Translations under genes and position numbers: made by a program
NCBI GenBank assembly: GCA_964035545.1
Contig: OZ037770.1
Span: 4,135,662-4,199,661 of the forward strand
Length of the DNA stretch: 64,000 nucleotides
Direction: 5' to 3'
DNA from: Bugula neritina
Lineage: Eukaryota > Bryozoa > Gymnolaemata > Cheilostomatida > Bugulidae
Notes under the pieces: model-generated
What the model saw: only the letters and a program-made list of their open reading frames with translations
What the model was told of the DNA's origin: nothing
The model's database searches: none
In this document: piece by piece, positions 13,703 to 43,128 of the stretch
Layout: the number at the start of each line of letters is the position of its first letter
How positions within the stretch are numbered: the first letter of the stretch is position 1

Positions 13703-17034
<3,332 letters not shown>

Positions 17035-17056
17035 ATTAAATTGCTAGCTCGTAAAG

Positions 17057-17280
<224 letters not shown>

Positions 17281-17453
17281 GTGTGTCTCGATGGATGTCA
17301 TTTTCTTTTTATATATAAGTTTTTTTTGGATAAACACCTTTTGTAAAATTGCCTTAGTTAGCTTTGTTTTTATATATATAATAGTTTTTTTATAGTACGC
17401 TTCTCTTCCACTCTAGGTTTAGCAGGAAGTACGCTCCCTGCTGGAGGGGACGG

Positions 17454-18116: not shown

Positions 18117-20223
18117 TTAGGGGTTTTCTTCTCTACTAAGCCCATCGAAGCCAGGAAACAGGTAAAGTCTTTTACGGAGAGGAAGAGTCTTCCAGATTAC
18201 TACCAAATTTCTGCTTCTCTCTGAATCTTCATCTGTATACAGTTTCTTAACTAGTTTAGTCTGTACCTGTAAAGTAAGTGATGACTAGTAAGATTGTTTA
18301 TCAATTCACTATTATAGCTGTGATAAAATGTAAATTTCAGCTTTTAGAATATTGTATCCCACTTGTAACAAATATGAACAGCAAACACTTTGGGAATTGT
18401 CTACCGCAGTCATATCATATAGCATATAGCAGTACAGTGGCACTAGTATATTAGCAAACTACAAGAACATATAGACAAGGAAGAGAAACTATAATCAATA
18501 TAGTGAGCCAATATATGCTAAAGGAATTGTAGGAGCAAAAACTACCAGGTAAACTAGAAAAAACTAGGAAGGATGTTCTGTTACTAAAACTATAGTGGAT
18601 ATTTTCTTTTAGAAGACAATAGGGTTTAAACATAGAAATGAATAAAATGATATGATGAGAAATAATATTTTAATTTCTTAAATAAAAGTTGAGCTAGCCA
18701 AAAAAGTATTGTGATTTTTAAACTTTAAAAGTATAAATAGTTTGTGAATTATAAACCCACCTGCTGAAAGATGGTGTAGAGATCCCGGTGACAGGCATGT
18801 TTGTAGATTGAAGATACTAGAGCTCTAATCATAGGAGATCCATACTCAGGATGTCTCTTTGATGCTAAAATACAATTAAGTGCAACCAAAATCTATAGGC
18901 TTATAGCCAGACCAAGTTTAACAGGTTTTAGTTATGGCATAGGCTTATCATATTTAAAATCTCAAAGTTCTGGAACACATTCTACTCTTTTCAGTTTAGT
19001 AGTTATTAGAATCAAAGCCCTTACAAAATGCGGGAATAATACAAAATCGGTAAACCACATTTTATGCAAGGTACAACAGCTCAGACAAGCTTATAGCCAA
19101 TCACTGTCTCTTATTATACTTACAGCAGACGTTACTCTTCAGAACAAGAAGATTATCAACATCCAGTCTGGTCATATGTTCTTCTATTCTATATTCTGGT
19201 GGTAAGACAGGTCTGATGGGTCTTATCACACTGGGTGTTTCAGGATATACAATATCATCCTCAGATTCAGAATGTGTAGAAGAGACAGCTTCAGTTTCTT
19301 CTTCTTGAGCTGCTGCAAGACCTGATCTCTCTGGATTCTCTTCAATGTTTGCTGCAACACATATAATTTAGTTATCAGGGAAGTAAGATAGATCAAAACA
19401 TCCATTTTCGTAGCAAAGTTGCCTAACCAATTTTATATGACACATTTCTGAAGATGTCCTTTTTTTTCTGTAAAAAATCATCTTAATGAAACAAAGAAGT
19501 TTTGACTACTGTGTAACCACTCAAATAAGTGTGTCCGTTTTTATTACAAAACAATATTCACCTTCGCTGCAAGCTTCCAGGATGACAACTGTAGGTTTAG
19601 GCTTTAAACTCAAAGGAGCGAGCAAATCATAAAAGTCTGTAAGGTTGACCTTCTCAAGGTCAGTTCCATAGATGCAGTTATCTTCACCACCATGAGTCAT
19701 AATAACCAGTATTTGACAACCCAAGCCATTGTTTTTTTCTCCTCTTATCTCAGACTTCACAGCCGACATCATTTCCTACAAATTTGGAAACAACTATAAT
19801 AATATTATATAATTGATACAAGTTTATGATAACTGAATAAAAGAATAATTTTTGAACTAGCAAAAAACAAAGTTTTGACCAGCAATAAACATGATTTGGG
19901 TTTTTTATTTAGGCCTTATTTTGAAGCATTGATAAACTAAGTAGTTAGGTGATGGTGTCAATTTTTAAGGTTTAATCAAGCAAGTGTCATGTTTCATATA
20001 CATGTAGATAAACTGAATGAATACTATTGCTTTCAGTCTAACAATATTATACCTCTGCTGTTAAGTCTGTGTGTGTCTCAACATCAAACTTAAGAGAGTT
20101 CAACATGACAGACATGTTCTCAACATCAGCATCTGAACCTTCCCTGCATAAGTCTGGTCTTTCGACAAAGTTCTTGTTGTTTATTATCAGAGCTCTTCCT
20201 CTCTCTCTGGTCATACTGAACAC
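18117..20223 (-). CDS. Caspase domain exons (p20 and p10) of the ROCO-caspase gene
   Basis: Five exons. Exon 20223-20053 encodes VFSMTRERGRALIINN, LCREGSDADVENM (with the S1-pocket Arg) and LKFDVETHTDL. Exon 19775-19562 encodes LVIMTHGGEDNCIYG, with catalytic His near 19692-19694, and VVILEACSE, with catalytic Cys at 19569-19571. Exon 19351-19124 is an acidic linker with several Asp residues (ESEDDIVYPETP) suited to self-cleavage. Exons 18864-18761 and 18266-18117 give the p10 part (HPEYGSPMIRALVSSIYKH; LPLRKRLYLFPG) and a TAA stop. Length, about 290 residues, is normal for caspase p20 plus p10. The active-site block EACSE departs from the usual QACxG, which could alter or lower activity. No CARD or DED was found in this region. 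Confidence 0.85.
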
Positions 20224-23200: not shown

Positions 23201-26200
23201 ACTAGTATTTCTTTTATTCCTATGGAATGCGTGTTTTTCCTAAATGTATTAGTTAGCGTAGCACCAGTCCATTAACAGCTAGGTGTCATGATAGTAATGA
23301 CTGAATTAGTTATTGTTCCTAGCTAGGCATTATTATAGTAAAGCTGGATTAGCAACTATTCATAGCTACGCATAGGACTGCTCATATAACTAAAGATGAC
23401 TGGAAATTTCACTCGAAATTCGCTTAATTCGAGCAAATTCCTGCTGACCTTTTGTTATTACCCTGCGAATCCCCTGCGATTCAAGCAAACTCCCTCAAAT
23501 TCGCATAGAACTTTCTAGACTAGTTACATCCAAATATATTAAAGGATTGCTCTATCTTGTCTAATAAATGGCCATTTAGGTCAAACACACATAATATTGT
23601 GTTTTTCTAAGCATGCATTGACAAAAAGCATTTGACCAAAGGTAGAAAAAGTTAGTTGAAGTTGAGGGTGTAGATTGGTAACAGTCAAAACGCTGATTTT
23701 GAAATGAGCTGGGAAATGTGACGTAACAGCGCCAGCATTCCTGCTGGTCTCGTGACTATACAAATGAATAACAATAGAAATATGACTGTGAGATGTGATC
23801 TTTCAGCTCGTAATTTGTATATTTATAGAAGTGCAAATGTGAATTATCTCAATCTATAGTTTTTTGACATGTTAAATAACATGTATGTGATAACATTAGG
23901 CTGTATTTTGCTTGTAAACATAGAAAAAAGCATTGCAAAAACATGCATTCTTTAGGATGAATGCCTGCGATCGATCTAAACTAGGTCAGATTGTGCAATA
24001 TTACGGGCGCACCAAAGCTGATCTATATAGCGCACTGTAACTGCTTGAACGTTATTGGTTGATGTTGCGCTCAGCAACCTTGAATAGTAGCGTTATAGTT
24101 AGCACGTGCAGCATAGTTACTGGCGTTCACACGTCACGTATTAGGCTATTCTTTCTCATGGCTGAAAATTTTACCTCCCTCAAAATTGGAATTTTGAAAA
24201 GCTGTCTTCTAGGCATATTGTAGTGAATTTTGCCAGTTCACTATTATTATTTGTGGGTCTACTTAATCAAAGCCACTGCGACAGGTTGTTTACGATAAGA
24301 TATTTTATTAGTTATACAAATAATAAGAAGGTTATTTACTGCTAGCATGAATAGAAAAACGGTTACATAATTAACGAGCTTTAATACACAACTGTTCTAA
24401 ATGAAATCCCAAGCTGCTCTGCCGGCTAGCTACTCAGCGCACTGCAACTACGAGTAGCTAGCTCCACCTGCTATCAATTAATGTCATTGTCCTGATTGGT
24501 GGCTACTAGTGGTGCCACTACTGCCCATAGCTACACTCCGACAGTGTCGAACTCACAAGATGCATAAAACAATATAGAGTTAACCTTTTCGATTAATACC
24601 ATAATACTTGCGCCACTAAAATCTACCACAATATATCCCTTTGCAAAGTCACAATTGTTTGCATACACATTAGATTATAGTTCATAATTACAATGTGATT
24701 GTAATAAACTAAGATAGAGCAATCCTTTAAAGGGAGCCTTCAAACCAGTGAATTGAGTTGACTGCCAGCATATCAGATGAAGACACAACTCGGAGCTACC
24801 AAGCAAGGACACTTGTATACCTAATGCATGGTTATTTACCTTATACTTAGAATAATAGTAGTACATATAGTTTTCCACGTGATGTAAGGAGTTATCCTCT
24901 CTAACTCTTTTTCTATTTTTGGATATATATTGGAGTACAATAAAGGATAGTGAGTATAAACTTTCTTATTTGTTTATTAATAAATATTCTCAGCAAAGAA
25001 TCACTGTGTTCCATCAGCTAATAACCCACACCAATAATTACATGCAGCGATTAATAACATTCCACGCATAAAATTATTACAATACTCTATACTGGGCGGA
25101 GAAAGGAGAGCTGCTATAACTTATGTTCATCAGCTGAAAAACTCACCTTGTCAGTGTTTGAGAAGAGTTGTTTTATCTTTGGGTTGGTTGTTGGCTTTAG
25201 TTCAATTTTTATTAACTTCATGCCTTCTTCAGGTTGCAGATTGTCATCATCTTCAAAGAGATTACTCAGATCTTCATCATTTAACTCATCTACGATCACA
25301 TGATTAGACAGATTATTGCCAAAATTTGAAACCATAAACTGCACATTTTGCTTAGACAGGAGTAGAAGCAATTAATTTCAAAAATCACAATTAGATATGA
25401 TTTGTAGGGAAGTGTAGAGCAAAATTTGCAAAGCCTTTAATTTTACCAATACTGTGGGTTTAAAAAGTAAGTTCTGTCTAAAAAGTTTACCGTTTGATTT
25501 GTTCTGCTCTCTTCGAAGTTTGAGCTCAGAAAGGAACTTCTTCAATTGATTTGTTTCTGCTTCAGACAAAGTCTCACCTGAGCAAAACAGATGTAATTAG
25601 TAACATTAAAACTGGATGAGAGGCATTAGAAGAATATGAGACATAATCAAAGGCTCATGTATCAAGTTTACACTTTATAAGTCAGTCTAAAAGTTCGTTA
25701 AAGTAGCTGTGTAGTTTGCTAATGTCCATCTAGCTGCTATTAAAATTCATCAATGCCTGAAAAAACAGTAGATACGTTTTGATAGTGCAACAAACTATTT
25801 AAAAACATTTGGGCAAAGCAATCAAAGGTGAATCATAGTTGTAAACATACATGGATGAATTAGAGCACTGGGTATCTCTTCATTGTTACACAATATCTTT
25901 GAAGATCCATGACACTTCTTGACATTTAGTGGCAGTTGGCTTTTCAAAGATCGGAGACACCATTTAGGATGCAAAAGCTTTTTAGGGCAAGAAACCCCCA
26001 GTAGCATGCAGTGAGCACAGATGCAGGCAGTAACTGGTCGACTAGCAGTCCAAGTTTCCATGACATGTTTGAGAATGTTGTTTGTAGCTGAGATGAGTTT
26101 CTCCCACATCTTGGAAATGTGAGGAGCATCGGATGACACATAGAGTAAGACTCTTCTAGATTCATAGTCATGTGTCAGCTGTGTGTATGTCTCATCTTGA

Positions 26201-29200
26201 TAGACATTAGCTCCATTTCTCTTCACTTTCATTGTAGCAAACTTTTTAGAAAACAGTTCTAGCAAACCAACTGTCATTTGATAGTAGACATGCTGCGGTA
26301 AAGCCAGGCCCTTAAACTTTATCTCAGTGTGAAGGACCATATCCTTTGGTGAGGTGTAAGACACACCGTGATGTTCCTTAGCAAACTGAGGGACGATGAA
26401 GTACGGTTCATGGACATCATTTTCGAGAGGGCCATATAACAAACGGAATGTTCTAAGCAAGCAAACAGCAGTTTCAACATCATGACAGCTTTTAAATAAT
26501 GTTTCCTTTGCGATCAAATATGTTAGAAGAGATTTCATCATCAAACCTGTTGTTTTGAAGCAATTCACAGACTCTTCAAACTCTTCTGTTTCAATTCTCA
26601 ACCCTTCTTCGGAAACGCATGATTGAAAGTGATCAACTCTTTTCTGCCAGATCTCTGGGTTATGATGATACAAGACACAGAGTAGTTTGGTAACTTCTGT
26701 GATCTTGTGAAATATGTATAGTTTAAGTGCTTCAATATTCTTATACCAGAGAACTTTACCGCAGTCATGCATGTATGTGAGAATAGTATCTAGCTGATGT
26801 GGCTCTACCTCAAAGCCTTCTTTTGTCAATTCCACCAGAATAAATGAAAAAGAGCTGAATGCTCCGGTTAAAGACAAAACTTTCTCATTCACTTCTTCCC
26901 AGATCAGTGGCAAAAGCTTAACAAAGGGCTGACTGCTTGAAAGAAGAGAGCTCTTTATTATTTCAAACTCAGCATACTTGTCATCCTTTCCAATCTGATA
27001 AATATCTGCACTGGCAAAAACCTTTCCATTTGATGAGTTGAAATGCTGTATTTTCGCAAAATTTCCATCTGAACCTTTCTCTTCATCAAGAACCTCTTTG
27101 CACAGCTGTTCAGATACTCTAAGAAAGTTTTCTTTAAGCTGTTGGAAGTGTTGACTCTGGAACTTATCCTTGTGTGTAAAGACAAGCTTAGGTGGGCCAA
27201 GAGATGGATGGGCAAGATAGAGGTGAGACATAAAGTCAAAGGCCAACTTTCTGACAGCCTCTGTGTTTGTAAACTCATTTGAAATCTGATCATACTGCTC
27301 CATGTTGACTACAATTACCGGTACACAATTCTGTCTCAGTGTTAAATGGTATGTGATATGGTAAACTTCTTGGCCTCCCATATCTATGAGACGAAGAGTT
27401 GTACCATCCACCTCCACCTCTTCTACATTGAACACTTTTGTGGTCTCATCATACTCTGCATTAGGACTTCTGTCAGTCAGAACTCTCTTCTTATCAGTGC
27501 TCTGTAATGTTCTGATTAGACTAGTTTTACCTGCCATGGTGTTTCCCAAAACCACTATTGTAGCAAATGGCAGATTTCTACCAGCACCCTTAGCCAAATC
27601 TGTGTAGTATTGTCGCACAGCATCTAATCCTCTTTGACAGACTTCTAGTGGAGGAGATGTAAGAGCATCACATCTACGTGTATAGAGAGACTGAAGACGC
27701 GTTAGCTGTAGTATCTCAGGGTTCAAAGATGTCATGGATTTGTTGTAGGATATATCCAGTGTGTACAGATTACTCAATGTACACACTGAAGATGGTAGAC
27801 TGGTGAAGTTATTCATTGATATGCGTAGTTTCTGTAACTTTTGTAGATTCTGTATTCTAATAATATATTATATTCATATTATCAGCACATACTAAAGGTA
27901 TAAGTGAGATCTAATTATAGCTGTCATAAATCTACAATGATAGTAAAGGATTATACACCGAATTTGGACGTATGAAGTGGCAATGGCTACAGTGACCTTA
28001 TTATATAAAAGCCTTTAAAGTAGTATGGGATATAATTGTAATTCTAGAATTTTCATTTATTGACATTCTCACAATTATCAAGTGGTATTTTGATATTCCA
28101 AATCATTTACAACACTACAACTACAATGAATTGGTAAAAGATATTAAAGAAGTATTTTACTGTCACAATTCATAATTCTTCCATCATAAACAATATTGTT
28201 CTATAATATAACATGTAGTTGAGTATAACTGCTTACACTGATATTTTATTAGATATGTATAATATATCTTATATATATGTACTCTATATAATACAGTTAA
28301 TCTGCTACCGGGAACCATGTAACCGGTACTACCTGTTCCATGGGTCGGACTGTCGGCGACTAAACCGATACCCCCTAATGTCTTGACATTAGGGAGGGTG
28401 TACTGGACATCCATGTAGAACTAAAAATAACATCTACTAAAAATCTGAAAGACCATTCCAGTGGGTATCTGTGGCAGCCCTCAAGGGCGTGTACAGACAA
28501 ACGTGTATAACGGCCAGCCACTGCAGCAGGTTGTAAATGCTAGCATATCTTGACCTGTTCTTGCCGCTAGATCCCATTTACACCCTGCCGAGAGAGAGAA
28601 CATGGTAACGCGAAAGCCAAGTTCACTTAACCACTTCGCATGCAGTTTTATGGACTATGACAATGGAAACAGTATTTGATACCGGCACGAACGTCGCCCG
28701 GGTTAACAAGGTTCGCGCTGGTCTGCTCCCGCTCCGGCAGCCAGTGAAAAGTCAGCTAGGACGCAATGGAAAGTTCAGAAAAGTTCTGAGACTAGCAGAA
28801 TGGAATGTTAGAACATTACTAGACCGGAATAATTCAAAAAGACCAGAGAGGCAGACAGCACTTGTTGCAAAAGAGCTGGGCCGATATGATATCGATATTG
28901 CAGCTTTGTGTGAAACTCGGCTTGCCCTGAATGATAGCCTTGTTGATAATGGGTACACATTCTTTTGGAGTGGAAAAGGCGAGGAAGAAAGAAGAGAATC
29001 AGGGGTGGGGTTTGCTATCAGGAATACAATTATGCCTTATCTAGAACAAGAACCAACAGCAATAAGTGATAGAATTATAAGCATGAGACTTCCACTGAAA
29101 AAGAATCATTATGTGACAATAGTGAGTGCTTACGCTCCAACAATAACAAATACGGAAGAAAAGAAAGAGGAGTTTTACAATAAATTGAGAGAAACAGTAA

Positions 29201-32200: not shown

Positions 32201-35200
32201 CATAATGTAGTTTAACTGTATTGACTATTTAGTTGAAAAATGTTTAAAATGGTAAGTCTATTGTGACACACAAACCTCTCAGGTAGAGTAGATATTTCAC
32301 AGTTCCCCATATCCAACTCTTTAAGTGATGTGAGTGATGACACAACTTCTGGTACTGTGTTGAGAGGATTGTCTACTATGTCTAGTTTCTCTAACTGAGT
32401 CAGCTGACACAGACTGTAATATAACGTTTTTAATATATGTTATAGTCAGTAGTCCACTTGTAGTTTGGTATAGTTTGACATATATACAGAGTATAATTAC
32501 AGATCGTTGCTATAACTTATACCACATGGTTGTGAGGGACAAGATAACTACTATATCAATTCAATTATTTAATTTGACTACTTGACCACTTACAGGTGCA
32601 AATATAATATTTTTTTATAATAGAGTACAAGTATTCAATACTCAGTAAATACTAGTAAACTAGAAATGACTGCTTACTATATAAATTAGATTTTTGTAAA
32701 ATAAGAATATAATATTATAATATAATTGCATATTTTAAAATTATGGGATTTCCATGATATTACAAACCATTACATGCATATAACTTTAAAAAAATAATTT
32801 TATATTTTAATTTATATAATGACTTACCATAATGCTACTTCGTAATACTACTTTATGTAAGCATATAAAGTTGTGAAATATTGATTGTTTCATACAACAC
32901 AAAGTTGTGACACACAAACCTCTCAGGTAGAGTAGATAATTCACAGCTCCACATATTTAACTCTTTAAGTGATGTGAGTGATGACACAACTTTTGGTACT
33001 GTCTTGAGAGAATTCTCTGTTATGTTTAGTTTCTCTAACTGAGTCAGCTGACATAGACTATAAACATATACAGTGTTTGATATATTCAGTTTTACTTATA
33101 CAGAGTGCAATTACTAGAGTTACTTCAGCTACCACATGATTATGAGGGATAAAAAACTATACTATCAAGTTATTTCTTCATAGCAAATCTATATAATGTA
33201 ACATACTATCATAAAGCTGGACTACTAGGTAAAAATATAGCAATTTATCATAATAGTACACAAGTATTTATTTTTAAACTCACTGAATACTATATAATAG
33301 ACTAGAAATTATTGCTAAGCCTAGGGCCACACTGTGCGTATTTTCGCATGCGAACATTTAAACCAGGAGTAGCAAAGGTGTCCACTGTATGCGTTGAGAA
33401 AACATTTGCACTTGTCGCTCAGCATTCTGAACGCAAGTGCGAATCCTCTCTGTCGCCGTCACCTAATTGGCTGGTAGTTATTAGCAAGCTCAATTCTTTA
33501 ATTTTAGTGCTATGTTCCAGTAAATTGCGTTTTGTTAAAAGCAAGTGCAATTTAAAAATGAAAGCTTCATTTATCCCGCATTACTGACACTACAGTGGAC
33601 ACCTTTGCTACCTGTGGTTTCAAATTTCGCATGCGAAAAAACGCACAGTGTGGCCCTAGGCTTAGATGTTTCACGCATGGACGCTTCCCATCTAGACGAT
33701 ATTTATAGATTTTAGTGTAATATATGTATTTTATGCTATTATTTAGCACATAATAGAAAGCAAATAAGCCACCAGCAAGCCACTTAGCCTAGGGCCACAC
33801 TGTGCGTATTTTCGCATGGGCAAATTGAAACCACAGGTAGCAAAGGTGTTCACTGTAAGTAGATGTAATGGGGGAGGTTCCTGCTCACTTTTCCTCACCG
33901 TCGAGTCTACGACTCGTAGGTGTTAAAAAGTTGAGCTAGAACGCCCCCCAATACATCTACTCCAACTTATTTTTATTAAATGATAATTATAAAAAAAATA
34001 TAATTTGTGTTTATACTTATAAACACAAATTGTATTTATATTATATAAAAATTTGTTTTAACTTGGTCATTATTTTTCATAGAAAATAAAGTTTTGAACG
34101 TTATAACTCTAAAATACGGGTTGCGAAGGAGATTCGGTAGATTTTATTATATCACCATCGCTTGTTGATATCAATAATTTATTACCAACCGGTGCTTGTA
34201 ATTTAGGAATAGCGTAACCCGGTATATTATTTAGCGTAATAAGATCGACAATATCTATGCCAGTTTTTACAATATTACCATTGCTCGAAAGCATTAATAA
34301 TTTAGCTCCGATTGACGGTTGTATTTTAGGCATAGCGAAATTAGACACATTAGTTTTCGTAATAACGCCGCTAACGCTTAAATTACTATCTTCAATGCTA
34401 CCGATATTAGTTGATACGGTTAACTTATTATTAGGATTATTTATAAGGGGTATAGGTTGTTTATCTATATTAGTTTTTGTAACGACTTTGCTAATACTTA
34501 TACTACTATCGACAACGCTACCGATATTAGTTGACGTGGTTAATTTATTTGTTGGATTTTGTATGAAAGGCATAGCGTAATTAGATACATTAGTTTTTGT
34601 AATGAAATCGTCAACTTTTAAATCGCTATCTATAACGTAACCAGCGTTAGTTGATATAGTTAACTGATTAATGGGGTTTTGTATGAGAGGCATAGCGTAA
34701 TTAGACGATTTCATAAAAACGTCTTCAACGCTTAAGCTACTATCAGCGACATTACCTTCTTCATTCCATATACGACTAATGTTTTATTAGGGTTTTGTAT
34801 TTTTGGTATACTTGCGTCATCAACGTATTGTTTTGTAGCGACGTCTTGATAGTCAACAGGATCAACGACTCTAGATATTTTATTAACGCCTATATCTAAA
34901 GTACCCGTAAGCGTATCACTACCGTCTCTTAAAACGAAATCGATATTTATTCTATTAATTACGTCGTTTGACGTTCCTCCAAATATATACACAGGACTCC
35001 ATTTATAATATAATTTTAATGACACTAAATCGAATGGTATAAATATAAGCGCGTCATTATCAATTGTTACATCATCGGATTTACGACTTGTAAAATTATT
35101 CGAACACTCTAATATTAGCCCGATATTTTACCCGCGTTGATTATTTCTAATATAGGATTTTAATATACCGAAGATTATGTACGCCGCCTCAAATTAAATA

Positions 35201-38200
35201 TTCTTTAGTAATGTGCTCGAAAGGTTTTGTCGTATCTCCAATTATTAGCGTTAATTTTTTATCTTTCCAATACAAAGGATTATTACTAGGACGCTTGTGA
35301 AATTGTATTAACGTGTAAGTTAATTCTATTCGTTTATCTACTATAAAACCCAACAATAACGCCGTGCTAATTTCATTACTAAAAGTTTGTATAAAATTAT
35401 TTTGATTTTCATTTATACTTCTTTCGTATAATTTTCTTCTTTTATATTTTCGGAAGAACCTCGAAATATATACACAAAACTCATTTATATATACTTATAA
35501 TAAAGTTTAAATGCTACTTATTGAAAAGGTATTGCCTCACTAGTATTTTCAGTTAATGGAAAATCTGTAAGAATTATGTTATCGGGTTTATGACTGGGAT
35601 AAGTTTTTGAAAGCGCTATTGTTGTTGAAAAGTTTTTATTAGCTTCAATAGTTTTATTATTCGGAATTTTAATATACGGAACACTATGCTCATTAACACT
35701 AATATCGTAAAAAGTATCTTCATTAGATGGCCCGGATAATGCGGTGCTATCCTGAATATGTATAATACCGAATTGTTTAAGAGAATCCATTTATTATAAG
35801 AAAAAAGTTAGTAAGCTATAGCTTGACCGCTTCCTTCTAAAATATTACTAATATTATTTCGAGGTTGACTAAGCATTTTTAATACGGCTCAATTTTTAGC
35901 GTTTAAATTTTATTTTTGACCTAGCTTTTTTAATGCGGCTCGATTTCTTATTGCGTTATCAATTTTTTCACCGGCCGCGTTACCGGCTTTAGCTATAACT
36001 TTTTCCCAATTGCCGTGGCCGCTTTTCTTACGCTGGCATTTCCAGCTATTTAACTTACTACGTTTCTAATAGAATCGAATATTCCACCACCGGCGTAGTG
36101 TCTTTGTAATCGTTGTCTTTTATCGTAAACATACATTTATTATAGGCAAAAAAGAATGTTTTTGTACTCGTTACGAGTAATTTGTTTCATTCTAAGTAAT
36201 TCGTCTAATATAGCTACAATTTCGTTTTGCACTCCCGTATTCCCTGCTTTAACGCTAGAAAATAAAAGTTGAAGTCGTTCCACTAAAGCGTCGGGGTTAA
36301 ACGATAAATAAACTACTCCGTCACCGATTTGCCTTTTAGCATTTTTACTATCGGCGAGTCTCGCTCTTTGAGGATATAATTGTTCCCAAATAGGTCTACC
36401 GATATGTCTCCGTGTTTACTTTGATATATAGCACCGCCGTTATCGAGTATATTAGCGTAATTCGCTAAATCATTTTCGCTATAATCTATCGGCGTTTTAC
36501 GCGTTAAAAGACTTAAAAGTCCTCTAATCGCTTGATATTCTTCACCGTCAAAAATTATTTTACCGTCATTAAAATTTATAGGTTTAGTACCTATAACGTG
36601 TCTATTACCATCCTCTTTCACGTTATAAGCACCGGATTCTAAGCCCGCTAAAGCAGTTTGAGTAAATTCGTCTAAATTTATAACTCCATCCGTTATAGCC
36701 GGTTGAACATTATAATTGGGTAATGTAAGCAATTGTTTTAACGCTTCAGTCGTTTGAGCTTGCGGAGTCGTTACGGGTTGAAAATATTTTTCTTGAGCCA
36801 TAGCGGCGTTCAATTCCTGCGCGCGCTCTCATTTAAATTCTTCTTTTATTCTATTCTTTCAAGATATAAAATCTTGTACGATCTCATCTCTTTTCGGCGG
36901 ATCATTAATCTTTAATAAACTCATTTATATAGACACAGATTTGTGTCCACTGTTGTGTCTAGTGTCTACGTTTGTTTCCACTATACACGTTCTAAAACAT
37001 TCAAATTTACCCATGAGTTTTGCGACTCGGAATAACCCAGCCATTTTACTAAAGCTTTTTTACCTTTCTTTTTAATTACGCGCTCTATTCTATAAATTTT
37101 TTGACTCGTCTTTTGCAATTCCTGTTCGTAAAAAAATCCTTGAATTTCTTCTCCTCCCGAGTCAATTAATTCATAAGTCGTCGGATTCGTGTATAATATT
37201 TTATTTATCGTAAACACTTCCTCAGCCCATCGTTCCTATTATCGCCGAGGCAATACGACTGTGTCGTTGTTTAGCGAGCGTAGAATCCGATATAGCTTTT
37301 AGTTCGTTGAGCATAATTTTATCGCATATTTCGTTTCTAGTCTTAGTATCTTTATTATTAGCGTGACATATCGTGTCTCATAGCTATAGCGTCGTCTCGA
37401 TCTACCGGTTTACTCCATTCTTTAGGAGTCATGTCTTCATTAAGACGCTTATTTAATTTAGTACCGGGACCTAAAAAACTATGACCGGGATAATGTAATT
37501 CAACAGGTAAATTATTTATTAAATTATTCGCTAAACTCGACCCAACAAACAAAGTTTGTTTACCTCCGCATTGACCGCAAGTACCGTAACTGATTAGTCT
37601 ATTGTTTTTACTTACTTTTTCTCCGTAATTAAGAGTTTTAGTTTTAATTTTACATTTACAACAGTACATTTATTATAGTAAATTGAAATACAAAATCTTT
37701 CGTGGTAAAACAAAATTAATCGTAATAATAATCGTTACTCCCTATAAGTAGAAGGGGTGTTATCATTGGAATGTCGGGGTGCGGTAAAACTACTTTACTC
37801 TGCAATTTACTGTTACAACCTAATTGGCTTGATTATAATAAACTCATGATTTACGGTAAAAGTCTCGATCAACCGGTATATAATATTATGCGAAAAGCTA
37901 TCTAAAGAAAATTTTTTAGAAGTATTTAAAAATAGCGATGTAATAATTAATTCCGGTATAAACGTAAATCGTATTTTAAAAAATTACGCTACCGGTAACG
38001 GTAATATAAACGCTGAATTTGTTGAATCGAGTGATAAAGTTTATGACCCTAGTGATTTAGATGCTAATAATAAAAATCTAATAGCGTTTGACGATTTAAT
38101 GCTTGAAAAACAAAACGTGTGCAAAAAATATTACGTAAGAGGACGACATAATAACGTCGATTGTTTTTATTCATCGCAAAATTATTTTAAGCTACCCAGA

Positions 38201-41200
38201 GAGTCTATTCAAGAAAATGCAAATTTTATTTGTTTTTTTTCTCAAGACGGTAAAAACCTAAGCGATTTACATCGAGATCACGTAAGTGGTGATATGCCTT
38301 TACACGAATTTAAAAACTTTTGTTATAATGGATGGCAAAAACCTCACGGCTTTATTACTTTGGACCTATCTTCTTCGAAAAACAATGGAAAGTATAGGCA
38401 CGGGTTAGACGAGTTTTATATATGCGACTAGACACTAGTGTCCACTTTTGTGTCTAGTGTCCACTTTTGTGTCTACATTAGTGTCCACTTTTAGGTCTAG
38501 TGTTTACTTTGTATTCACTTTGTGTCTAGTGTCTGCATTTGTGTTCACATTATATATACACTAGTGTTTACTTTTATATTTAAACGTTTATTTTTTAATA
38601 AAAATAAGTTAGAGTAGATGAAATGGGGAGCGTTCCAGCTCACTTTTTTAACACCGGGGAGTCGTAGACTCGACTGTGGGGAAAGGTGAGCTGGAACAAC
38701 CCCCCCCCCCATTACATCTACTACTGTAGCGTCAGTGGTGTGGCATAAATAAAACTTTCATTTTCAAATCGCACTCGCTTTTAATAAAACCCAATTTACT
38801 GAAATATAGCACTAAAATGAAGGAATTGGGTTCGCTAATTAACTACCAGCCAATTAGGTGACGACAACAGAGACGATTCGCACTTGCGTTCAAAATGCTG
38901 AGCGACAAGTGCAAATGTTTTCTCAACGCGTACAGTGGGCACCTTTGCTACTTGTGGTTTTAATGTTCGCATGCGAAAATACGCGCAGTGTGGCCCTAGG
39001 CTTACTATTAATTACATTTTTATAGCACAACAATATATAATGGCTTAAAATTTTGTTATTCCCACAATATAATAAACAATTGCATATATATGTGTAACTT
39101 TAAAACACTGCATTTTCTATTTTTCATTTATACAATGGCATACCATAACAACACTTGGTAAGCATAAAAGTTGTCAAATATTGAATCTTTAAAAGAACAC
39201 AAAGTTGCGACACACAAACCTCTCAGGTAGATTAGATAATTTACAATCCACCATATTCAACTTTTCAAGTGATGTGAGTGATGACACAACTTCTGGTACT
39301 GTCTTGAGAGAATTCTCTGTTATGTTTAGTTTCTCTAACTGAGTCAGCTGGCATAGACTATAAACATACAGCGTTTAATATATTTAGCTTCACTTATACA
39401 GAGTACAATTACTACAGTTACTATAACTACCACATGATTATGAGGGATAAAAAACTATACTATCAATTTATTCCTTCATAACAGATCTATATAATTCAAC
39501 ATACTATCATAACGCTTGGCTATATTAGGTAAAAATATAACAGTTTATTGTAATAGTATGCAAAAAAATTAATTTTAAACTCACTGAATACTAATAAACT
39601 AGAAATTATTGCTTACTATTAATTACATTTTTATAGCACAACAATATATCATGGCATATAACTTTAAAACTGTGTTATTCCCACAATATTATAAGCCATT
39701 GCATATATGTGTGTAACTTCAAAACATTGCATTTCATATTTTTCAATTATACAATAAAATACCATAACAATACTTGGTAAGCATATAAAGATGTCAAATA
39801 TTGAATGTTTAAAACAATACAAACGTTCTGCCACACGAACCTCTCAGGTAGAGTAGATAACCTACAGCTCCCCATATCCAACTCTTTAAGTGATGTGAGT
39901 GATGACACAACTTCTGGTACTGTGTTGAGAGGATTATATCCTATGTCTAGTTTCTCTAACTGAGTCAGCTGACACAGACTGTAATATAAAGTGTGTAATA
40001 TATGTAGTCTGCATTACTATAATATTTTATACTATACTCACATTTTGTTTTCAACCAGGTAAAACTATATACAACTCAACTACCAAGCAATTTATTGTAG
40101 CATTGTACATGCAAAGCATGGGAAGTTAACAGTTTATTATAATAGTATACAGGTATTCAATTATTATATATACTCAGTGTGTGAATACTAACCAACTATA
40201 CAACTGCTTACTATTATTTACATTTTTATAACACAAGAATATATAATGGCATAAATACCTTAAATTATGTTGTTTTCACAATATTACAGACCATATTTCA
40301 TATGGAATTAAAAAAAATTGCATTTCACATATTTTTCAATTATATAATGACATGCCCTAATTATACTTGGTAATAAGAAACTATTTTATGATTTCAAGTA
40401 ATAAATGTTTCAAACAATACAAAACCTGTGACAAACAAACCTCCCAGGTAGAGTAGAAAATTTACAGCTCTTCATATCCAACTGTTTAAGTGATGTGAGT
40501 GATGACACAACTTCTGGTACTGTGTTGAAAGGATTATCTTCTATGTGTAGTTTCTCTAACTGAGTCAGCTGACATAAACTGTAATATAAAGTGTATGATA
40601 TATATGTAGTCTGCATTACCATAACATTTTATACTATATTCACATTTTGTTTTCAACCAGGTAAAACTATATACAACTCAACTACCAAGCAACTTATTGT
40701 AACATTGTACATGCAGAGCATGAGAAGTTAACAGTTTATTATAATAGTATACAAGTATTCAATTATTATATATACTCAGTTTGTGAATACTAATCAACTA
40801 TACAACTGCTTACTATTATTTACATTTTATAGCACAAGAATATATAATGGCATACCTTAAATTTTGTTATTTTCACAATATTACAGACCATATTTCATAA
40901 AGAATTAAAAAAATTGCATTTCACAGATTTTTCAATTATATAATGACATAACCTAATTATACTTGATAAGGAACTATTTTATGATTTCGAGTATTAAATG
41001 TTTCAAACAATACAAAACTGTGACAAACAAACCTTTCAGGTAGAGTAGATAATTCACAGCCTTCCATATTCAACTCTTCAAGTGATGTGAGTGATGACAC
41101 AACTTCTAGTGCTGTGTTGAGACGATTCCATCTTATGTCTAGTTTCTCTAACTGAGTCAGCTGACATAAACTGTAATATAAAGTGTGTAATATATGTAGT

Positions 41201-42121
41201 CTACTGTATCATATATATAATAATATAATCTGTACTCAGCTATAATGTAAATTATGGAGCAAACAATTTTGTTGAAACAGGGTACAGCAAAAAAAAGCTA
41301 TTATATGCCATGTTATACGTGTAATGGGTGCCCTGTGTAGAATTGAGTGATTAGATGTACATGTATAAAGACATCCTGTAAGTTTAATAGATAAGGGTTA
41401 CCCTACAATGTAATGCTAATATATAGTATGATTTATAATTATAAATGGTTTACTTTGTTATAGCTAATCTGACACAAATTAGCATGTATTTAACATTCCG
41501 AAAATTTTTTATTTTCAAATATATGGCTACATATATTATACTTATATATATATATATATATATTGCAGATAAAAACCTTCTGTATAATCCTACACGTATA
41601 CATGTACTACATATAGTATGTTACTTCTGTATTCAACTACATAAAACATGTTTTAATTTGTGATGGCATGTGTAACACTACAAACAGTTTCCCGCTGTCT
41701 AATTTCTACAACTTGTTCAGCTGGTAGAGATACAATGTTATACATATTACTATAGCTTTTTATAGTGCATGATTACATCATGAGTATAAGAATGTACTTC
41801 AGCATTGACTTAGATACATGCACCGTGGGTTCTATTTATCACAACTAAACTCATTTAACATTTACACAGCTATCTTAATAGACACTCACTGGTCTAGACT
41901 TGCTCTGTCAGTCAGGATAGAAACATTTAGACACAGGGCTTTACCGGCAACCTCTCCAATGTTGTTTGGAATTCTCCCTCCTAGTTTTAGATCTGTGATG
42001 TAAAAACTTCCAACTTCACGTTTCACATCAGCAGTAGTATATGACTTGGTTTTAGTTTTCCATACATCTGACCAGCTCACAGGAGGCTGTCCAGAATGTC
42101 TGAACCAGATTCTCATACTCT
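18117..42121 (-). CDS. Predicted LRR-Roc-COR-caspase fusion gene (N-terminus not determined)
   Basis: Exons on the minus strand: 42121-41890; LRR exons 41170-41033, 40578-40441, 39978-39841, 39357-39220, 33057-32920 and 32413-32276; Roc-COR 27856-25851; linkers 25577-25491 and 25289-25147; caspase 20223-20053, 19775-19562, 19351-19124, 18864-18761 and 18266-18117. Every intron is GT-AG and every phase fits, giving roughly 1,390 residues. The join from linker to caspase reads TDK then VFSMTRERGRALIINN, the usual caspase N-terminal block, where I recall caspase-8 having LDK-VYQM. Known of the parts: ROCO proteins are GTPases dimerising through COR, and caspases cut after aspartate to drive cell death or inflammation. 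Inference: a GTPase-controlled protease acting in the cytosol. The large intron 25146-20224 is the least certain join; two adjacent genes are the alternative. First exon and promoter were not found. Confidence 0.68.
20385..22137. mobile_element. Non-autonomous hAT-like transposon
   Basis: The termini are CAGGGATGTAGTGG and its inverted complement CCACTACATCCCTG. An exact 8-bp duplication, ACTATAAC, flanks both ends (20377-20384 and 22138-22145), as is typical of hAT elements. Further subterminal inverted repeats contain TAGGCCATAC. A very GC-rich block with GGGGTCC-like runs lies at 20425-20490. There is no transposase frame. It sits in the large intron between linker and caspase exons. Confidence 0.9.
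22138..23542. other. Intronic sequence, no gene seen
   Basis: No exon with fitting splice sites was recognised. A weak tRNA-like arrangement on the minus strand near 22852-22930 is not strong enough to call. Confidence 0.4.
23543..24726. mobile_element. TTAA-flanked TIR element (piggyBac-like target), with a solo LTR inside
   Basis: AGGATTGCTCTATCTT at 23543 and its inverted complement ending at 24726 form exact 16-bp terminal repeats. TTAA lies immediately outside both (23539-23542 and 24727-24730), the target duplication used by piggyBac-type elements. No transposase is encoded. Removing the LTR at 24219-24630 leaves about 0.77 kb, MITE-sized. The superfamily is inferred from the target only, since the terminal bases are not the usual piggyBac CCY. 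Confidence 0.65.
24219..24630. repeat. Solo LTR, 412 bp
   Basis: It starts TGTAGTGA, ends CTACCACA and is flanked by ATAT on both sides, a 4-bp target duplication. It shares ordered blocks with 12403-12807 (GGGTCTACTTAAT, GCCACTGCGACAGG, GTCCTGATTGG). No retroelement genes adjoin it, so it is probably the product of LTR recombination. Confidence 0.75.
25147..25577 (-). CDS. Two linker exons of the ROCO-caspase gene
   Basis: Exon 25577-25491 (87 bp, phase 1 to 1) encodes ETLSEAETNQLKKFLSELK, a short amphipathic, lysine-rich helix. Exon 25289-25147 (143 bp, phase 1 to 0) encodes an acidic stretch (DELNDEDLSNLFEDDDN) and then KLIKIELKPTTNPKIK. Acceptors TTTTGCTCAG and TGATCGTAG and donors GGTAAAC and GGTGAG are clear. 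The phases let them join the Roc-COR exon upstream and the caspase exon downstream without a break. No domain was recognised; the Asp-rich part could be a cleavage site. Confidence 0.7.
25851..27856 (-). CDS. Roc-COR exon of the ROCO-caspase gene
   Basis: A single 2-kb exon of about 669 residues. It opens with the last leucine-rich repeats (LQKLRISMNNFTSLPSSV, LYTLDISYN), then the Roc GTPase: P-loop GNTMAGKTS near 27546-27520, switch DMGGQEVYH and base-specifying THKDK. COR follows from about WEEVNEKVLSL to the C-terminal third. The exon ends with a Cys-rich tail (CICAHCMLLGVSC) and EEIPSALIHP before a strong GTATGT donor at 25850. If that donor is ignored, the frame stops at 25822, giving an alternative short ROCO protein without caspase. 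Roc-COR proteins bind and hydrolyse GTP as dimers. No kinase domain is present, unlike LRRK proteins. Confidence 0.92.
28300..31845 (+). mobile_element. Full-length RTE-like LINE retrotransposon, antisense in a ROCO-caspase intron
   Basis: An exact 14-bp duplication, ATATAATACAGTTA, flanks it (28286-28299 and 31846-31859). It contains one intact ORF, a 5' UTR of about 357 bp and a 3' UTR of only about 39 bp ending in a (GA)n run. Short 3' UTRs with simple repeats are typical of RTE-type LINEs. The intact ORF and perfect duplication point to a recent insertion. Confidence 0.93.
28657..31806 (+). CDS. LINE ORF: AP-like endonuclease and reverse transcriptase
   Basis: An uninterrupted 1,049-codon frame. 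Residues of about 45-300 form an exonuclease-endonuclease-phosphatase-type nuclease (LAEWNVRTL, AALCETRL, IIAGDFNARVG, STDHTMI), which nicks the target. Residues of about 560-850 form the reverse transcriptase: NWKNANIVPIFKKGSRKDC, YRGISLLS, AVFIDFTKAFDTV and the catalytic block LFADDSALVAH. The C-terminal part (LRWLGHVHRMEHSRLPRQLL) is the usual tail of this LINE group. The start is the first ATG of the open stretch. Annotators often label host-like hits to this nuclease craniofacial development protein 2-like. RTE clade is inferred from layout. The frame has no stop, so the copy may be active. Confidence 0.93.
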   Translation: MTMETVFDTGTNVARVNKVRAGLLPLRQPVKSQLGRNGKFRKVLRLAEWNVRTLLDRNNSKRPERQTALVAKELGRYDIDIAALCETRLALNDSLVDNGYTFFWSGKGEEERRESGVGFAIRNTIMPYLEQEPTAISDRIISMRLPLKKNHYVTIVSAYAPTITNTEEKKEEFYNKLRETVKNISITDKLIIAGDFNARVGCEAQNWPGVIGNQGIGKCNTNGELLLAFCSEYQLVITNTVFKHRQHHKVTWMHPRSQHWHLLDYVITRRKDQNDVLDTRAMRGADCSTDHTMIRSKLAFALRKAKNKTRGNSACKLNVGKLQNQDMLQEFQKQMDKAMDYRDDDGVTLEERWGRLKISAFNTATKVLGRAERKHQDWFDDNDAKLNALLNERNMAKSKALQRRTRSSTDRLAQARSKLQKYTREKKSQWWEEKAESLQQAADKNNMKAFYNGLREVYGPQNRGITQLLDQSGKTVLTAKNDTLKRFAQHFDLLLNVPGEVDQEALNSLTNMPPNLSLDDMPSFDELLDAIDATKENKSPGECGIPAEVWKYGGIRLKERLYDLIAYIWSNEKMPQNWKNANIVPIFKKGSRKDCGNYRGISLLSIAGKIMARIILNKINVNITPGILPETQCGFRNSRSTIDMIFSFRQIQEKCAEQNMELYAVFIDFTKAFDTVSRDGLWRVLKKFGLTEKVTNLIKALHAGMQAKVVQGRDASNEFVVTNGVKQGCVLAPTLFSLYLTAMLEVAFQNVNEGIYIQTRHGADLFNVAQFKSKTRTTKHLVREMLFADDSALVAHCAADMQVLMNNFAKAAAQFSLKINIKKTECMYQPIKLIHPPPEPEVVMIDQEPVVLASDFTYLGSTVSCMAKIDKELRNRLGKASAAYGKLQQRLWNNRHVSIRVKCKVYRAVVLSSLLYGAETWTIYRTQVKKLSAFMMRQLRDIMAVKWYDKVTNEEILRRANLPSLADILIEKNLRWLGHVHRMEHSRLPRQLLYSQLKEGKRNTGRPRLRLKDVAKRNMKWRAINLSSWQQTADNRAAWRAATKSKLNP
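32276..33057 (-). CDS. Two LRR exons of the ROCO-caspase gene
   Basis: Exons 33057-32920 and 32413-32276, each exactly 138 bp (46 codons), phase 2 at both ends. Each encodes about two leucine-rich repeats of the form LCQLTQLEKLDI, NPLNTVPEVVSSLTSL and LSTLPE. LRRs normally form a curved ligand-binding surface. Because length and phase are symmetric, an exon can be lost or gained without changing the frame. The second exon of the pair joins the Roc-COR exon once the LINE-bearing intron is removed. Confidence 0.85.
33315..33666. mobile_element. MITE with long TIRs
   Basis: CTAAGCCTAGGGCCACACTG at the left and its inverted complement at the right extend to inverted repeats of roughly 75 bp that include TTCGCATGCGAA and AGCAAAGGTGTCCACTGT. 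It is about 350 bp and non-coding. A second copy lies at 33785-39004, split by the Polinton-like element. It sits in the intron between LRR exons 39220 and 33057. Confidence 0.85.
33858..33981 (+). repeat. Left TIR of the Polinton-like element, internally palindromic
   Basis: The outer 105 bases start AGTAGATGTAATGGGGG and end CCCCCCAATACATCTACT, so the end can fold on itself. A perfect inner hairpin, CGAGTC-TAC-GACTCG, sits at the centre. The same sequence is inverted at the right end. Confidence 0.88.
34109..35025 (-). pseudogene. Fibre-like repeat protein of the Polinton-like element, frameshifted
   Basis: Two abutting frames, 35025-34732 and 34714-34109, read as one protein broken by a frameshift near 34730-34760. 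The N-terminal part has VYIFGGTSND and then DIGVNKISRVVDP...ATKQYVDD, a pattern known from phage and viral tail-fibre proteins. The rest is about six imperfect repeats of some 33 residues, each with a core like YAMPxIQNPxNKLTxSTN followed by Gly and Asp-Ser. Repeats of this kind suggest a fibrous shaft, so a role in particle attachment is inferred. No known receptor-binding domain was recognised. Confidence 0.6.
35044..35480 (-). pseudogene. Decayed reading frame of the Polinton-like element
   Basis: Minus-strand coding remnants open with MSFVYIFRGSS, similar to the VYIFGGTS start of the neighbouring fibre-like protein. They continue in another frame with ELTYTLIQFHKRPSNNPLYW and LTLIIGDTTKPF before several stops. 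It may be a second fibre-type gene. Function not recognised. Confidence 0.35.
35518..35790 (-). CDS. Small hypothetical protein of the Polinton-like element
   Basis: A 90-codon frame from an ATG, ending TAA. It contains SVPYIKIPNNKTIEANKNF, which echoes the xIPxIQNPNNK core of the fibre-like repeats. A structural or fibre-associated role is likely from the similarity and position only. Confidence 0.5.
   Translation of the reverse strand: MDSLKQFGIIHIQDSTALSGPSNEDTFYDISVNEHSVPYIKIPNNKTIEANKNFSTTIALSKTYPSHKPDNIILTDFPLTENTSEAIPFQ
35815..36137 (-). pseudogene. Small basic protein of the Polinton-like element, with stops
   Basis: It starts MYVYDKRQRLQRHYAGGGIFDSI and continues with a basic, alanine-rich stretch (GNAAGEKIDNAIRNRAA) interrupted by about three stop codons. 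A glycine-rich start followed by a basic amphipathic region recalls minor capsid or core proteins of adintovirus-like elements. This is a weak, composition-based call. Confidence 0.35.
36135..36923 (-). pseudogene. DUF8207-like protein of the Polinton-like element, broken
   Basis: The longest open part is 36813-36313 (166 codons), with a block GLLSLLTRKTPIDYSENDLANYANIL that is common in Polinton-borne proteins of cnidarians and other invertebrates (DUF8207, name from memory). Upstream, the same frame reaches an ATG at 36923 (MSLLKINDPPKRDEI) but crosses two TGA codons. Downstream, a frameshift near 36320 moves to a conserved C-terminal segment with PDALVERLQLLFSS and ILDELLRMKQITRNEYKN. Function unknown; probably structural or morphogenetic. 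Three lesions make it inactive. Confidence 0.6.
36981..37245 (-). pseudogene. Integrase C-terminal fragment with chromodomain
   Basis: The frame is open from the region of the PLA2-like gene's end through 78 codons after the ATG at 37217. It starts WAEEVFTINKILYTNP, the strand-rich tail found after the core of Polinton integrases, and ends in a chromodomain (YRIERVIKKKGKKALVKW, SQNSWVNL). The zinc-binding and DDE catalytic domains are absent, so it could not integrate DNA. Chromodomains bind modified histone tails and steer insertion. The fragment abuts the PLA2-like frame, which suggests an internal deletion joined them. Confidence 0.75.
37240..37669 (-). pseudogene. Phospholipase-A2-like protein of the Polinton-like element, frameshifted
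   Basis: It begins MYCCKCKIKTKTLNYG with a zinc-ribbon-like Cys set (CxC, CGQCGG), then ELHYPGHSFLGPGTKLNKRL, the calcium-loop block of the viral PLA2 family, and DRDDAIAMRHD with the catalytic His-Asp pair. A one-base shift immediately after the His-Asp stops the frame at 37358. The conserved continuation is readable in the next frame down to about 37240. In parvoviruses and adintovirus-like elements this domain alters membranes during entry. It is disrupted here. Confidence 0.75.
37753..38431 (+). pseudogene. FtsK/HerA-type packaging ATPase of the Polinton-like element, frameshifted
   Basis: Walker A GMSGCGKTT lies near 37770-37796, and Walker B LIAFDDLML near 38080-38105. Family blocks YYVRGRHNNVDCFYSSQNYF, LPRESI and HRDHVSGDM, and a C-terminus GKYRHGLDEFY, follow. 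No ATG precedes Walker A in frame, and a frameshift near 37900 (stop TAA) separates Walker A from the rest. This family pumps viral DNA into capsids. Length without the breaks is about 225 residues, near that of Polinton ATPases. It is the only plus-strand gene of the element. Confidence 0.82.
38430..38570 (+). repeat. Short tandem repeat inside the Polinton-like element
   Basis: Imperfect copies of about 19 bp built on AGTGTCCACTTTTGTGTCT. Related words (GTGTCCACTGTTGTGTC) recur at 36940-36985, just before the integrase fragment, so this may be a dispersed intergenic or promoter repeat of the element. Confidence 0.7.
38595..38722 (-). repeat. Right TIR of the Polinton-like element, internally palindromic
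   Basis: Inverted copy of 33858-33981. The outer 110 bases start AGTAGATGAAATGGGG and end CCCCATTACATCTACT, with the inner hairpin GAGTC-GTA-GACTC. Confidence 0.88.
39220..41170 (-). CDS. Four LRR exons of the ROCO-caspase gene
   Basis: Exons 41170-41033, 40578-40441, 39978-39841 and 39357-39220, each 138 bp and phase 2 at both ends, spaced about 600 bp. They encode variants of LCQLTQLEKLxI, NxxNTxxEVVSSLTSL and LSTLPER, differing mostly at surface positions. The introns are also similar to one another, so exon plus intron was copied as a unit. Every acceptor is in the TATATTACAG or TTTATAG class and every donor is AG-GTTTGT or AG-GTTCGT. Together with 33057 and 32413 they give six copies. 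Confidence 0.87.
41890..42121 (-). CDS. Candidate N-terminal-side exon of the ROCO-caspase gene
   Basis: An open exon of about 77 residues with acceptor GATGTTACAG and donor CCA-GTGAGT. It ends in phase 2, exactly what the first LRR exon requires. It reads SMRIWFRHSGQPPVSWSDVW, then REVGSFYITDLKLGGRIPNN. Tryptophan-rich; no domain recognised. The true first exon lies further upstream or was displaced by the gypsy element at 43-47.7 kb. Confidence 0.6.
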
Positions 42122-43128
42122 CTGTAACATCATACAATGACAGTTTAATTATTACACAGTGCTAGCAGGTGATGTCTGTCATTCTGAAACCTGTCACATA
42201 CATCTATTATTTGCCGTGTGTCAAACACTATTATAGCTACATATAGACATGTCTGGCTACTTTAGGTTTATAAAGGTAAAATCTGCAAATTTAAAATGAT
42301 CTCTAATTTTCTAAGAACAACTGCTTTGTGTAAATACTTTAAAATTATGCTGCTTCGGTTTCAATAAAGATCTTTTTAAATAATGTTGACATATATTAAA
42401 CATTATATAAATATATTAAAACATTTTAAAATGATTTGAATTTAAAGCAGCCAAAAAAACGCTGAATTATTATTTCATATCTATGCATGCACAAAAAGGT
42501 ACGAATAGCAACATTGATCCGATCAAGTTAAAACTTTCTATATCTGACACTGCGTACTTCCTACCCTATGAGTCACACAGCCAATGTTTACAGGATGATT
42601 ATAAAAATACATGCACTAGTATATAGCTAGAACACTTTTTGGATAGTTGAGTACTTGGATGTTGCTCATATATGAGCTATGGAAACACATTTACCACTAA
42701 AGAGGTTTTAGAAAACTCTTGTCCCAATAGCTAAAACCTTTACTAGTCTTGCTAAAATGAGATTCATACTAATGCAGAGCTGCTTTTGTTCAAACCTATA
42801 TTCAAATGAATGCTAAGTATTGTCTAAATACAAATAGTAACAACCAGTAGATAACTTTGGTTGAAAGCAAAACTTGTAACTTTGTTTTTCAGCACAAAGT
42901 TATCAAAATAACTCACCATCTGTTGCCATGGTTACTAAAGATTTTACTGCCGATTTATTTCAATTCTGTACATCTAAAGGTAGGCAGCCCTATCTCTACA
43001 AAATGTAAATGCAGATTCCTAAAAAAATTGCAGATTTGAAAATAATAGATTAGCTGCAATATTTTCAACTGCCACTATTAAGCACTTTATAGACAAAACT
43101 GTATAATAGTCAACAGTTAATTAACTAA
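42122..43128. other. AT-rich sequence upstream of the first recognised ROCO-caspase exon
   Basis: No convincing exon, promoter or mobile element recognised. Confidence 0.4.

Follow-up and report, generated by a model that had tools for sequence, protein, structure and literature searches.

LRRK1 and LRRK2 carry a kinase and DAPK1 carries a kinase and a death domain, while MFHAS1 is an LRR-ROCO protein that is not known to carry a caspase. Bacterial LRR-ROCO proteins (PDB 6hlu and 3dpu, listed as 'Rab family protein' and presumably both CtRoco) share the order LRR, hinge, Roc with our protein, but have no caspase, and the best-aligned stretches on the solved chains span the LRR-Roc part only. 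Caspase-3, caspase-8 and CED-3 (C14) have the p20-p10 layout, the His and Cys and the RxG[ST] segment in common with the caspase studied here, but their N-terminal part is a CARD, a DED or a short peptide instead of LRR-Roc-COR. Excerpts of published reports describe ROCO proteins coupled to death or immune adaptor domains: those of Trichoplax carry CARD or death domains (PMC4104024), and Aplysia has TIR-ROCO proteins together with eight caspases (PMC9334734). In contrast, the protein described here couples ROCO to the protease itself. Brown algae have LRR-ROCO candidate immune receptors, 9-47 genes per species. The excerpted text gives them several features of our family: an expanded set of genes, LRRs that occupy separate exons, shuffling of exons and diversifying selection. 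It names no caspase, and in three group-3 members the C-terminus has a peptidase domain of another type, IPR009003 (PMC11378527).

The gene lies in the window, a 64,000-nucleotide stretch of the bryozoan Bugula neritina, on a contig (C6) of the 216-Mb genome. A first-pass annotation, made from the sequence letters, had proposed that a ROCO GTPase is fused here to a caspase. We find its exons where it had placed them and, on re-deriving the splice ends and phases in a 16-exon frame, its GT-AG ends and phases are right at every exon. The minus-strand model runs from 42929 down to 18117 as one frame of 1391 amino acids, with all exons open, every internal junction GT-AG and the phases compatible, in the order cap, six 46-residue LRR exons, Roc-COR, two linker exons and a p20-p10 caspase:

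42917..42929, minus strand: candidate start exon ATGGCAACAGATG (MATD), 13 bp, phase 0-1, predicted from sequence and frame continuity
41890..42121, minus strand: N-terminal cap exon (..MRIWFRHSGQPP..), phase 1-2, aligned by the Watersipora proteins P0033 and P0051
41033..41170, minus strand: LRR exon 1, 138 bp, phase 2-2, two LRRs
40441..40578, minus strand: LRR exon 2, 138 bp, phase 2-2
39841..39978, minus strand: LRR exon 3, 138 bp, phase 2-2
39220..39357, minus strand: LRR exon 4, 138 bp, phase 2-2
32920..33057, minus strand: LRR exon 5, 138 bp, phase 2-2
32276..32413, minus strand: LRR exon 6, 138 bp, phase 2-2
25851..27856, minus strand: large exon with the last LRRs, the Roc GTPase and COR, 2006 bp, phase 2-1; Roc by Pfam, COR-A by profile-profile alignment
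25491..25577, minus strand: linker exon A, or linkA (ETLSEAETNQLKKFLSELKLRREQNKSN), phase 1-1, in 20 of 20 fetched paralogs
25147..25289, minus strand: linker exon B, or linkB, acidic and then KLIKIELKPTTNPKIKQLFSNTDK, phase 1-0, in 18 of 20 fetched paralogs
20053..20223, minus strand: caspase exon 1, or casp1 (VFSMTRERGRALIINN.., CREGSD), phase 0-0, 92 genome matches
19562..19775, minus strand: caspase exon 2, with His1188 (MTHGG) and Cys1229 (LEACSE), phase 0-1, PF00656 at 1.6e-5 by itself
19124..19351, minus strand: caspase exon between p20 and p10, acidic, phase 1-1
18761..18864, minus strand: caspase p10 exon (SSKRHPEYGSPMIRALV..), phase 1-0
18117..18266, minus strand: last caspase exon (..LPLRKRLYLFPGF..), phase 0, TAA stop

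Each of the six LRR exons is exactly 138 bp, or 46 codons encoding two LRRs. The start exon, which lies upstream of the 42121 limit of the first-pass annotation, reads on from MATD into ESMRIWFRHSG, and the cap that follows is matched by P0033 (30% identity with residues 5-184 of the window protein) and lies within the end-to-end alignment of P0051. Mobile or virus-like elements occupy two of the introns. The intron that separates LRR exon 6 from the Roc-COR exon contains a plus-strand, LINE-type ORF of 1065 amino acids (28609-31806) with endonuclease and reverse transcriptase (PF00078, 1.7e-31), and between LRR exons 5 and 4 is a second mobile or virus-like element (34109-38431), whose small ORFs match a chromo domain, DUF5679 and, below the cut-off, a phospholipase A2-like domain. 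Long TA-type simple repeats lie immediately downstream of the gene (16600-17300).

The Roc domain of the window protein matches PF08477 at 33.1 bits (Pfam cut-off 27), and its G1, G3 and G4 motifs (GxxxxGKTS, GGQE and THKD) are intact in all 21 loci compared. LRRs stand N-terminal to it, both in the six LRR exons and at the opening of the Roc exon. As the Pfam match to COR-A was too weak (14.6 bits against a cut-off of 35.3), we used hhalign against other ROCO proteins, where the alignment (100%) begins in the last LRRs, continues across Roc and ends in the COR-A-matched region, covering columns 9-410 of 692. Among 11 Watersipora relatives scanned at E 0.05, five had COR-A and three had COR-B. 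For the protease, the joined p20-p10 region matches PF00656 at 2.6e-28 over positions 1-213 of the 233 in the profile, and the C-terminus of the protein aligns with P0051. His1188 and Cys1229 align with the SHG and QAC catalytic segments of caspase-3 p17 chains, and the QACxG pentapeptide is replaced by EACSE. At E 0.1, we found no match to CARD, DED or Death in the joined window protein, and none to NACHT or NB-ARC in it or in five Watersipora proteins; it resembles an NLR in mode of working at most.

The pairing of Roc-COR with a caspase recurs across the genome. A search with the Roc-COR exon returned 67 rows, two of which are one locus, giving 66 loci with the window included; a second search added six, chosen for open frames over 580 amino acids, and a third added seven, for a set of 79 that leaves out the other PF08477 rows (small GTPases, small contigs). 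A caspase exon lies downstream on the same strand within 3 kb of 69 of these 79 loci, within 6 kb of 73 and within 15 kb of 76. Upstream on the same strand, there is one within 6 kb of none and within 15 kb of three, and the opposite strand contains none within 15 kb of any locus. After displacement of the caspase loci by 20-300 kb, a mean of 2.6 and at most seven Roc-COR loci had one within 6 kb (200 draws), compared to the 73 observed; thus, the two are not neighbors by chance. Reading the DNA of the remaining three loci, we found a linkB-like stretch and caspase exon 1 in each, and later caspase exons in two; the stretch at the third (L035) ends within exon 1. Stop codons fall inside the Roc-COR exon at three loci (C6:3755216, C6:3939254 and C6:4987054).

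Viewed from the caspase side, the association is less complete. The listed caspase exon matches merge into 133 places, 76 of which have one of the 79 Roc-COR loci within 15 kb upstream and 57 of which have none, so that some caspases either stand apart from Roc-COR or have one that the searches did not pick up. These 57 may be stand-alone caspases, or fusions whose Roc-COR has diverged or was missed. Places with none of the 79 loci upstream include C9:9.32-9.41 Mb, C7:7.58-7.71 Mb and C2:30.5 Mb. L003, L005 and L008 (C1:32.8-33.6 Mb) form a caspase subgroup that is more diverged (VVIVVAC, LLACRE) and are possibly further fusions; L008 has a weak Roc-COR match upstream of its caspase.

In 20 fetched paralogs, linkA was present in all, linkB in 18, and caspase exons 1 and 2 within the fetched stretch in 18. 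The two exceptions, L018 and L026, have linkA, a linkB-like stretch that is weak (E 0.43 and 0.076) and no caspase inside the fetched 6.5 kb; their nearest listed caspase exons, 10.2 and 14.9 kb downstream, are at most possible partners. The reading of these two as loci without the fusion is only weakened, as both have linkA and the weak linkB-like stretch. Among more distant loci, L029, L031 and L032 have both linkers and L030 has linkB only.

We scored splice dinucleotides in the paralogs at the places predicted from the window gene. The Roc-COR donor was GT in 20 of 20 and the linkA acceptor AG in 20 of 20, with the linkA donor GT in 15 of 20. For linkB, the acceptor was AG in 7 of 18 and the donor GT in 18 of 18; the linkers differ in length at their ends, and the extension was ungapped. 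At casp1, both the acceptor AG and the donor GT were present in 18 of 18, as were both ends of the second caspase exon; the donor of the third was kept in 17 of 18 and that of the fourth in 15 of 17 (the other two being GC), and the acceptor of the fifth in 16 of 16. Neither the linkers nor the caspase exons of the compared paralogs contain a stop codon. Pooled pN/pS was 0.31 for Roc-COR, 0.53 for linkA, 0.35 for linkB and 0.24-0.61 for the caspase exons; linkA and linkB are under purifying selection.

The first-pass annotation had suggested a search of related genomes for the same domain order, and the bryozoan Watersipora subatra provides it: annotated proteins of this species, among them P0051, P0034 and P0058, have the LRR-Roc-COR-caspase order of the window protein. 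In a word-based search of 5.8 billion proteins, which scored the 7999 candidates with most shared words, the hits covering at least 84% of the query were Watersipora proteins. The alignment with P0051 is end to end (window residues 2-1382), with 31% identity, and P0058 aligns over residues 68-1384. Twelve Watersipora proteins have a precomputed caspase domain; of the 11 that we scanned, all matched PF00656 and nine matched Roc. Their QACxG, present in 11 of 11 segments, which were located by that very motif, contrasts with EACSE in the window. Metagenome fragments of Roc-COR are closer in sequence but shorter (P0001, 87% identity over 65% of the query; P0003, 91% over 55%). Outside Bryozoa, no protein with both Roc and caspase appeared among the matches of the word-based protein searches. 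The Watersipora relatives, some of them named 'malignant fibrous histiocytoma-amplified sequence 1 homolog', are database annotations.

In a p20 tree, 39 bryozoan segments grouped against six vertebrate proteins and L006 (96/92), with long-branch warnings. The bryozoan set comprised 28 segments from this genome, including L003, L005 and L008, which are possible fusions, and 11 from Watersipora; P0038 (segment not located) and P0062 (an isoform) were omitted, and of three other caspase loci tried only L006 (75 amino acids) entered. One fusion before the two bryozoan species parted is the simplest, though unproven, reading. Variation on the common plan is seen in P0057, a Watersipora Roco-caspase that also has fibronectin III domains and whose hydrophobic C-terminus is a possible membrane anchor, and in P0035, an LRR-Roc-COR protein with a linker-like tail (..TEIKDLFDNTDVAST) that ends about where a caspase would begin. 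The Watersipora N-termini MGCSLS (P0033), MGAKSS (P0051) and MGQKRL (P0035), which look to us like acylation signals, differ from the MATDES of the window protein.

The caspase halves appear to have a history of their own. Over 153 pairs, mean synonymous divergence was 0.371 in Roc-COR and 0.396 in the linkers, compared to 0.193 in caspase exons 1-4; the caspase value was under half of the Roc-COR value in 74 pairs, and the reverse held in one. Clade tests on the 18 of 21 loci with caspase exons 1-4, using clades picked from identities and trees already seen, gave conflicting topologies. Under the caspase data, a Roc-COR clade of eight was rejected, with a log-likelihood 89 lower and p-AU 0.0004; under the Roc-COR data, a caspase clade of six was rejected, with a log-likelihood 336 lower and p-AU 1.7e-7. 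This pattern is most simply read as gene conversion or unequal exchange that broke near the intron between linkB and casp1, which in the window gene is 4.9 kb long. The active site varies as well. At the catalytic position, 12 of 19 loci have Cys and seven have Ser, while His is kept in all 19. Ser replaces Cys on at least two backgrounds (L010, L011, L012, L015 and L017; L014 and L016), and the surrounding motif is QACS in L023-L025, QACSG in L030 and EVCS, ETCS or FHACS in other loci.

The LRR exons form arrays. With one LRR exon as query, we found at least 150 matches in the genome; of the 146 listed on C6, to which the placement was confined (three on C7 and one on C1 were left out), 140 are found upstream of a Roc-COR gene on the same strand, at most 60 kb from it, over 28 genes. 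At L033, 15 LRR exon copies are spaced 526-596 bp apart, 14 of them with the same splice ends. As the six window exons were too few for a test of selection, we added these 14, leaving out the one copy with no GT at 138 bp, and compared those LxxLxLxxN strand positions presumed to lie on the concave side with all others. Across the 20 exons, whose pairs are not independent, pN/pS was 1.40 at concave positions (1.08-2.15, bootstrap over exons) and 0.39 elsewhere (0.30-0.49). The window exons gave 1.50 and 0.53 and L033 1.35 and 0.35; L033 is the fairer test, as the concave positions were chosen after the window exons had been seen. This excess of amino-acid change on the concave face suggests that the sensor surface is diversifying. 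In its use of LRR exons, the bryozoan family would follow a strategy like that of the brown-algal ROCO genes, presumably of independent origin. Six further LRR exons (C6:6034113-6057996, plus strand) lie 70-93 kb from the next listed same-strand Roc-COR gene, as an orphan array or part of a missed gene.

Could the arrangement be a ROCO gene beside a separately transcribed, short-prodomain caspase gene, the two having been co-duplicated as a pair? The separate history of the caspase halves would fit such neighbors, as would a Met four residues into casp1 in most copies shown (P0052, with VYQLA, is an exception), the lack of a caspase domain in Watersipora P0035 and P0042, and the 57 of 133 caspase places that adjoin none of the 79 Roc-COR loci. 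Several findings speak against it: linkB or a linkB-like stretch separates Roc-COR from the caspase in the fetched loci (weakly in L018 and L026), both linkers are under purifying selection, the linkB donor and casp1 acceptor are kept in 18 of 18, the gap is 710-760 bp in five loci, and Watersipora annotation joins both parts. We consider this arrangement extremely improbable. Nor is it much more credible that, in a real family, the window copy has become a pseudogene whose introns took in transposons: the 1065-codon LINE, the second element and the long linkB-casp1 intron speak for it, but 16 of 16 exons are open with intact splice ends, and the stops are found instead in the three other Roc-COR loci. 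Given the conserved linker, the splice ends and phases at linkB-casp1, the dozens of loci with the same order and the Watersipora proteins, the fusion of LRR-Roc-COR with a caspase in one gene, as the first-pass annotation had proposed, is almost certainly real.

A fused caspase need not cut. cFLIP is a pseudoprotease that serves as a dimerization or docking surface, and the caspase domain of this family might mainly do likewise, its active sites decaying. Pointing that way are the EACSE of the window, the seven of 19 loci where Ser stands in for Cys, on at least two backgrounds, and EVCS, ETCS or FHACS elsewhere; yet Cys is kept in 12 of 19 loci and His in 19 of 19, QACS persists in L023-L025 and QACxG in L030 and the Watersipora segments, and the caspase exons have pN/pS of 0.24-0.61, so that we regard a mainly non-proteolytic domain as unlikely. 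The trigger, too, might be other than a foreign or non-self ligand. Colonial bryozoans recycle their zooids, and a family serving developmental cell death, such as regular zooid degeneration, would suit both this habit and a caspase output. Recognition systems, however, more typically show what is seen here, dozens of copies, LRR exon arrays and an excess of amino-acid change at concave positions, and we think a developmental role distinctly unlikely. We favor, as the somewhat more probable account, a family of single-chain receptor-proteases with an LRR sensor, a Roc-COR switch and a caspase output, and a role in immunity or allorecognition is probable. The division into LRR sensor, GTPase switch and protease output, to which the first reading of the locus had also come, would fit the diversifying LRR surface and the expansion.

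How might such a receptor-protease work? Initiator caspases activate by dimerization. We propose that a ligand at the LRR concave face, together with the GTP or GDP state of Roc-COR, would shift the LRR-Roc hinge and the oligomeric state of the protein. The changed assembly would let caspase domains meet and activate by proximity; the caspase would then cut its own acidic p20-p10 linker, leading to cell death or an inflammatory output, so that the whole would amount to an inflammasome or apoptosome compressed into one chain. In the excerpted text of one study, CtRoco is monomeric with GTP (PMC11052575), and hence GTP-driven dimerization cannot simply be assumed. Members with Ser for Cys could be dampeners or decoys that poison the assembly. 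New pairings of sensor and effector would arise from growth of the family, from arrays of LRR exons and from the swapping of caspase halves, and such pairings would most probably serve immunity or self/non-self recognition in a colonial animal. In the parts of the literature drawn on here, allo-incompatibility in colonial animals including bryozoans is mentioned in one paper (PMC8195603), and ROCO appears in the reference lists of that paper and another (PMC7159879). More speculatively, and with considerable doubt, the large, clustered repertoire, recombining LRR sensors with active or Cys-to-Ser caspase halves between loci, might be an adaptor-free suicide system for both allorecognition and infection sensing, comparable in animals to the NLR clusters of plants or the incompatibility genes of fungi, but with a ROCO instead of a NACHT switch.

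Among the titles and abstract openings listed from the open-licence literature, none describes a ROCO-caspase fusion, and we therefore describe the family, which is unusually large, as ROCO proteins with a new output domain. The first-pass annotation had known of no well-described protein with this layout; databases contain automatically annotated Watersipora proteins that have it. These proteins, the large family and its Ser-for-Cys members were all beyond the view of that annotation. Should the fusion be produced as protein, a caspase would be under the control of a GTPase switch in the same chain, and both the effect of the ROCO nucleotide cycle on an attached enzyme and the triggering of a caspase without death-fold adaptors would become directly testable. 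Family size, diversification of the sensor face and the separate caspase history would together make an immune or allorecognition repertoire of a kind undescribed in those titles and abstract openings.

The genome searches also touched sequences of another sort. On contigs C58, C90, C99, C144 and C210, small-GTPase matches contain in-frame TAA and TAG but no TGA, as if they came from an organism that reads TAA and TAG as an amino acid, perhaps a ciliate-like contaminant.
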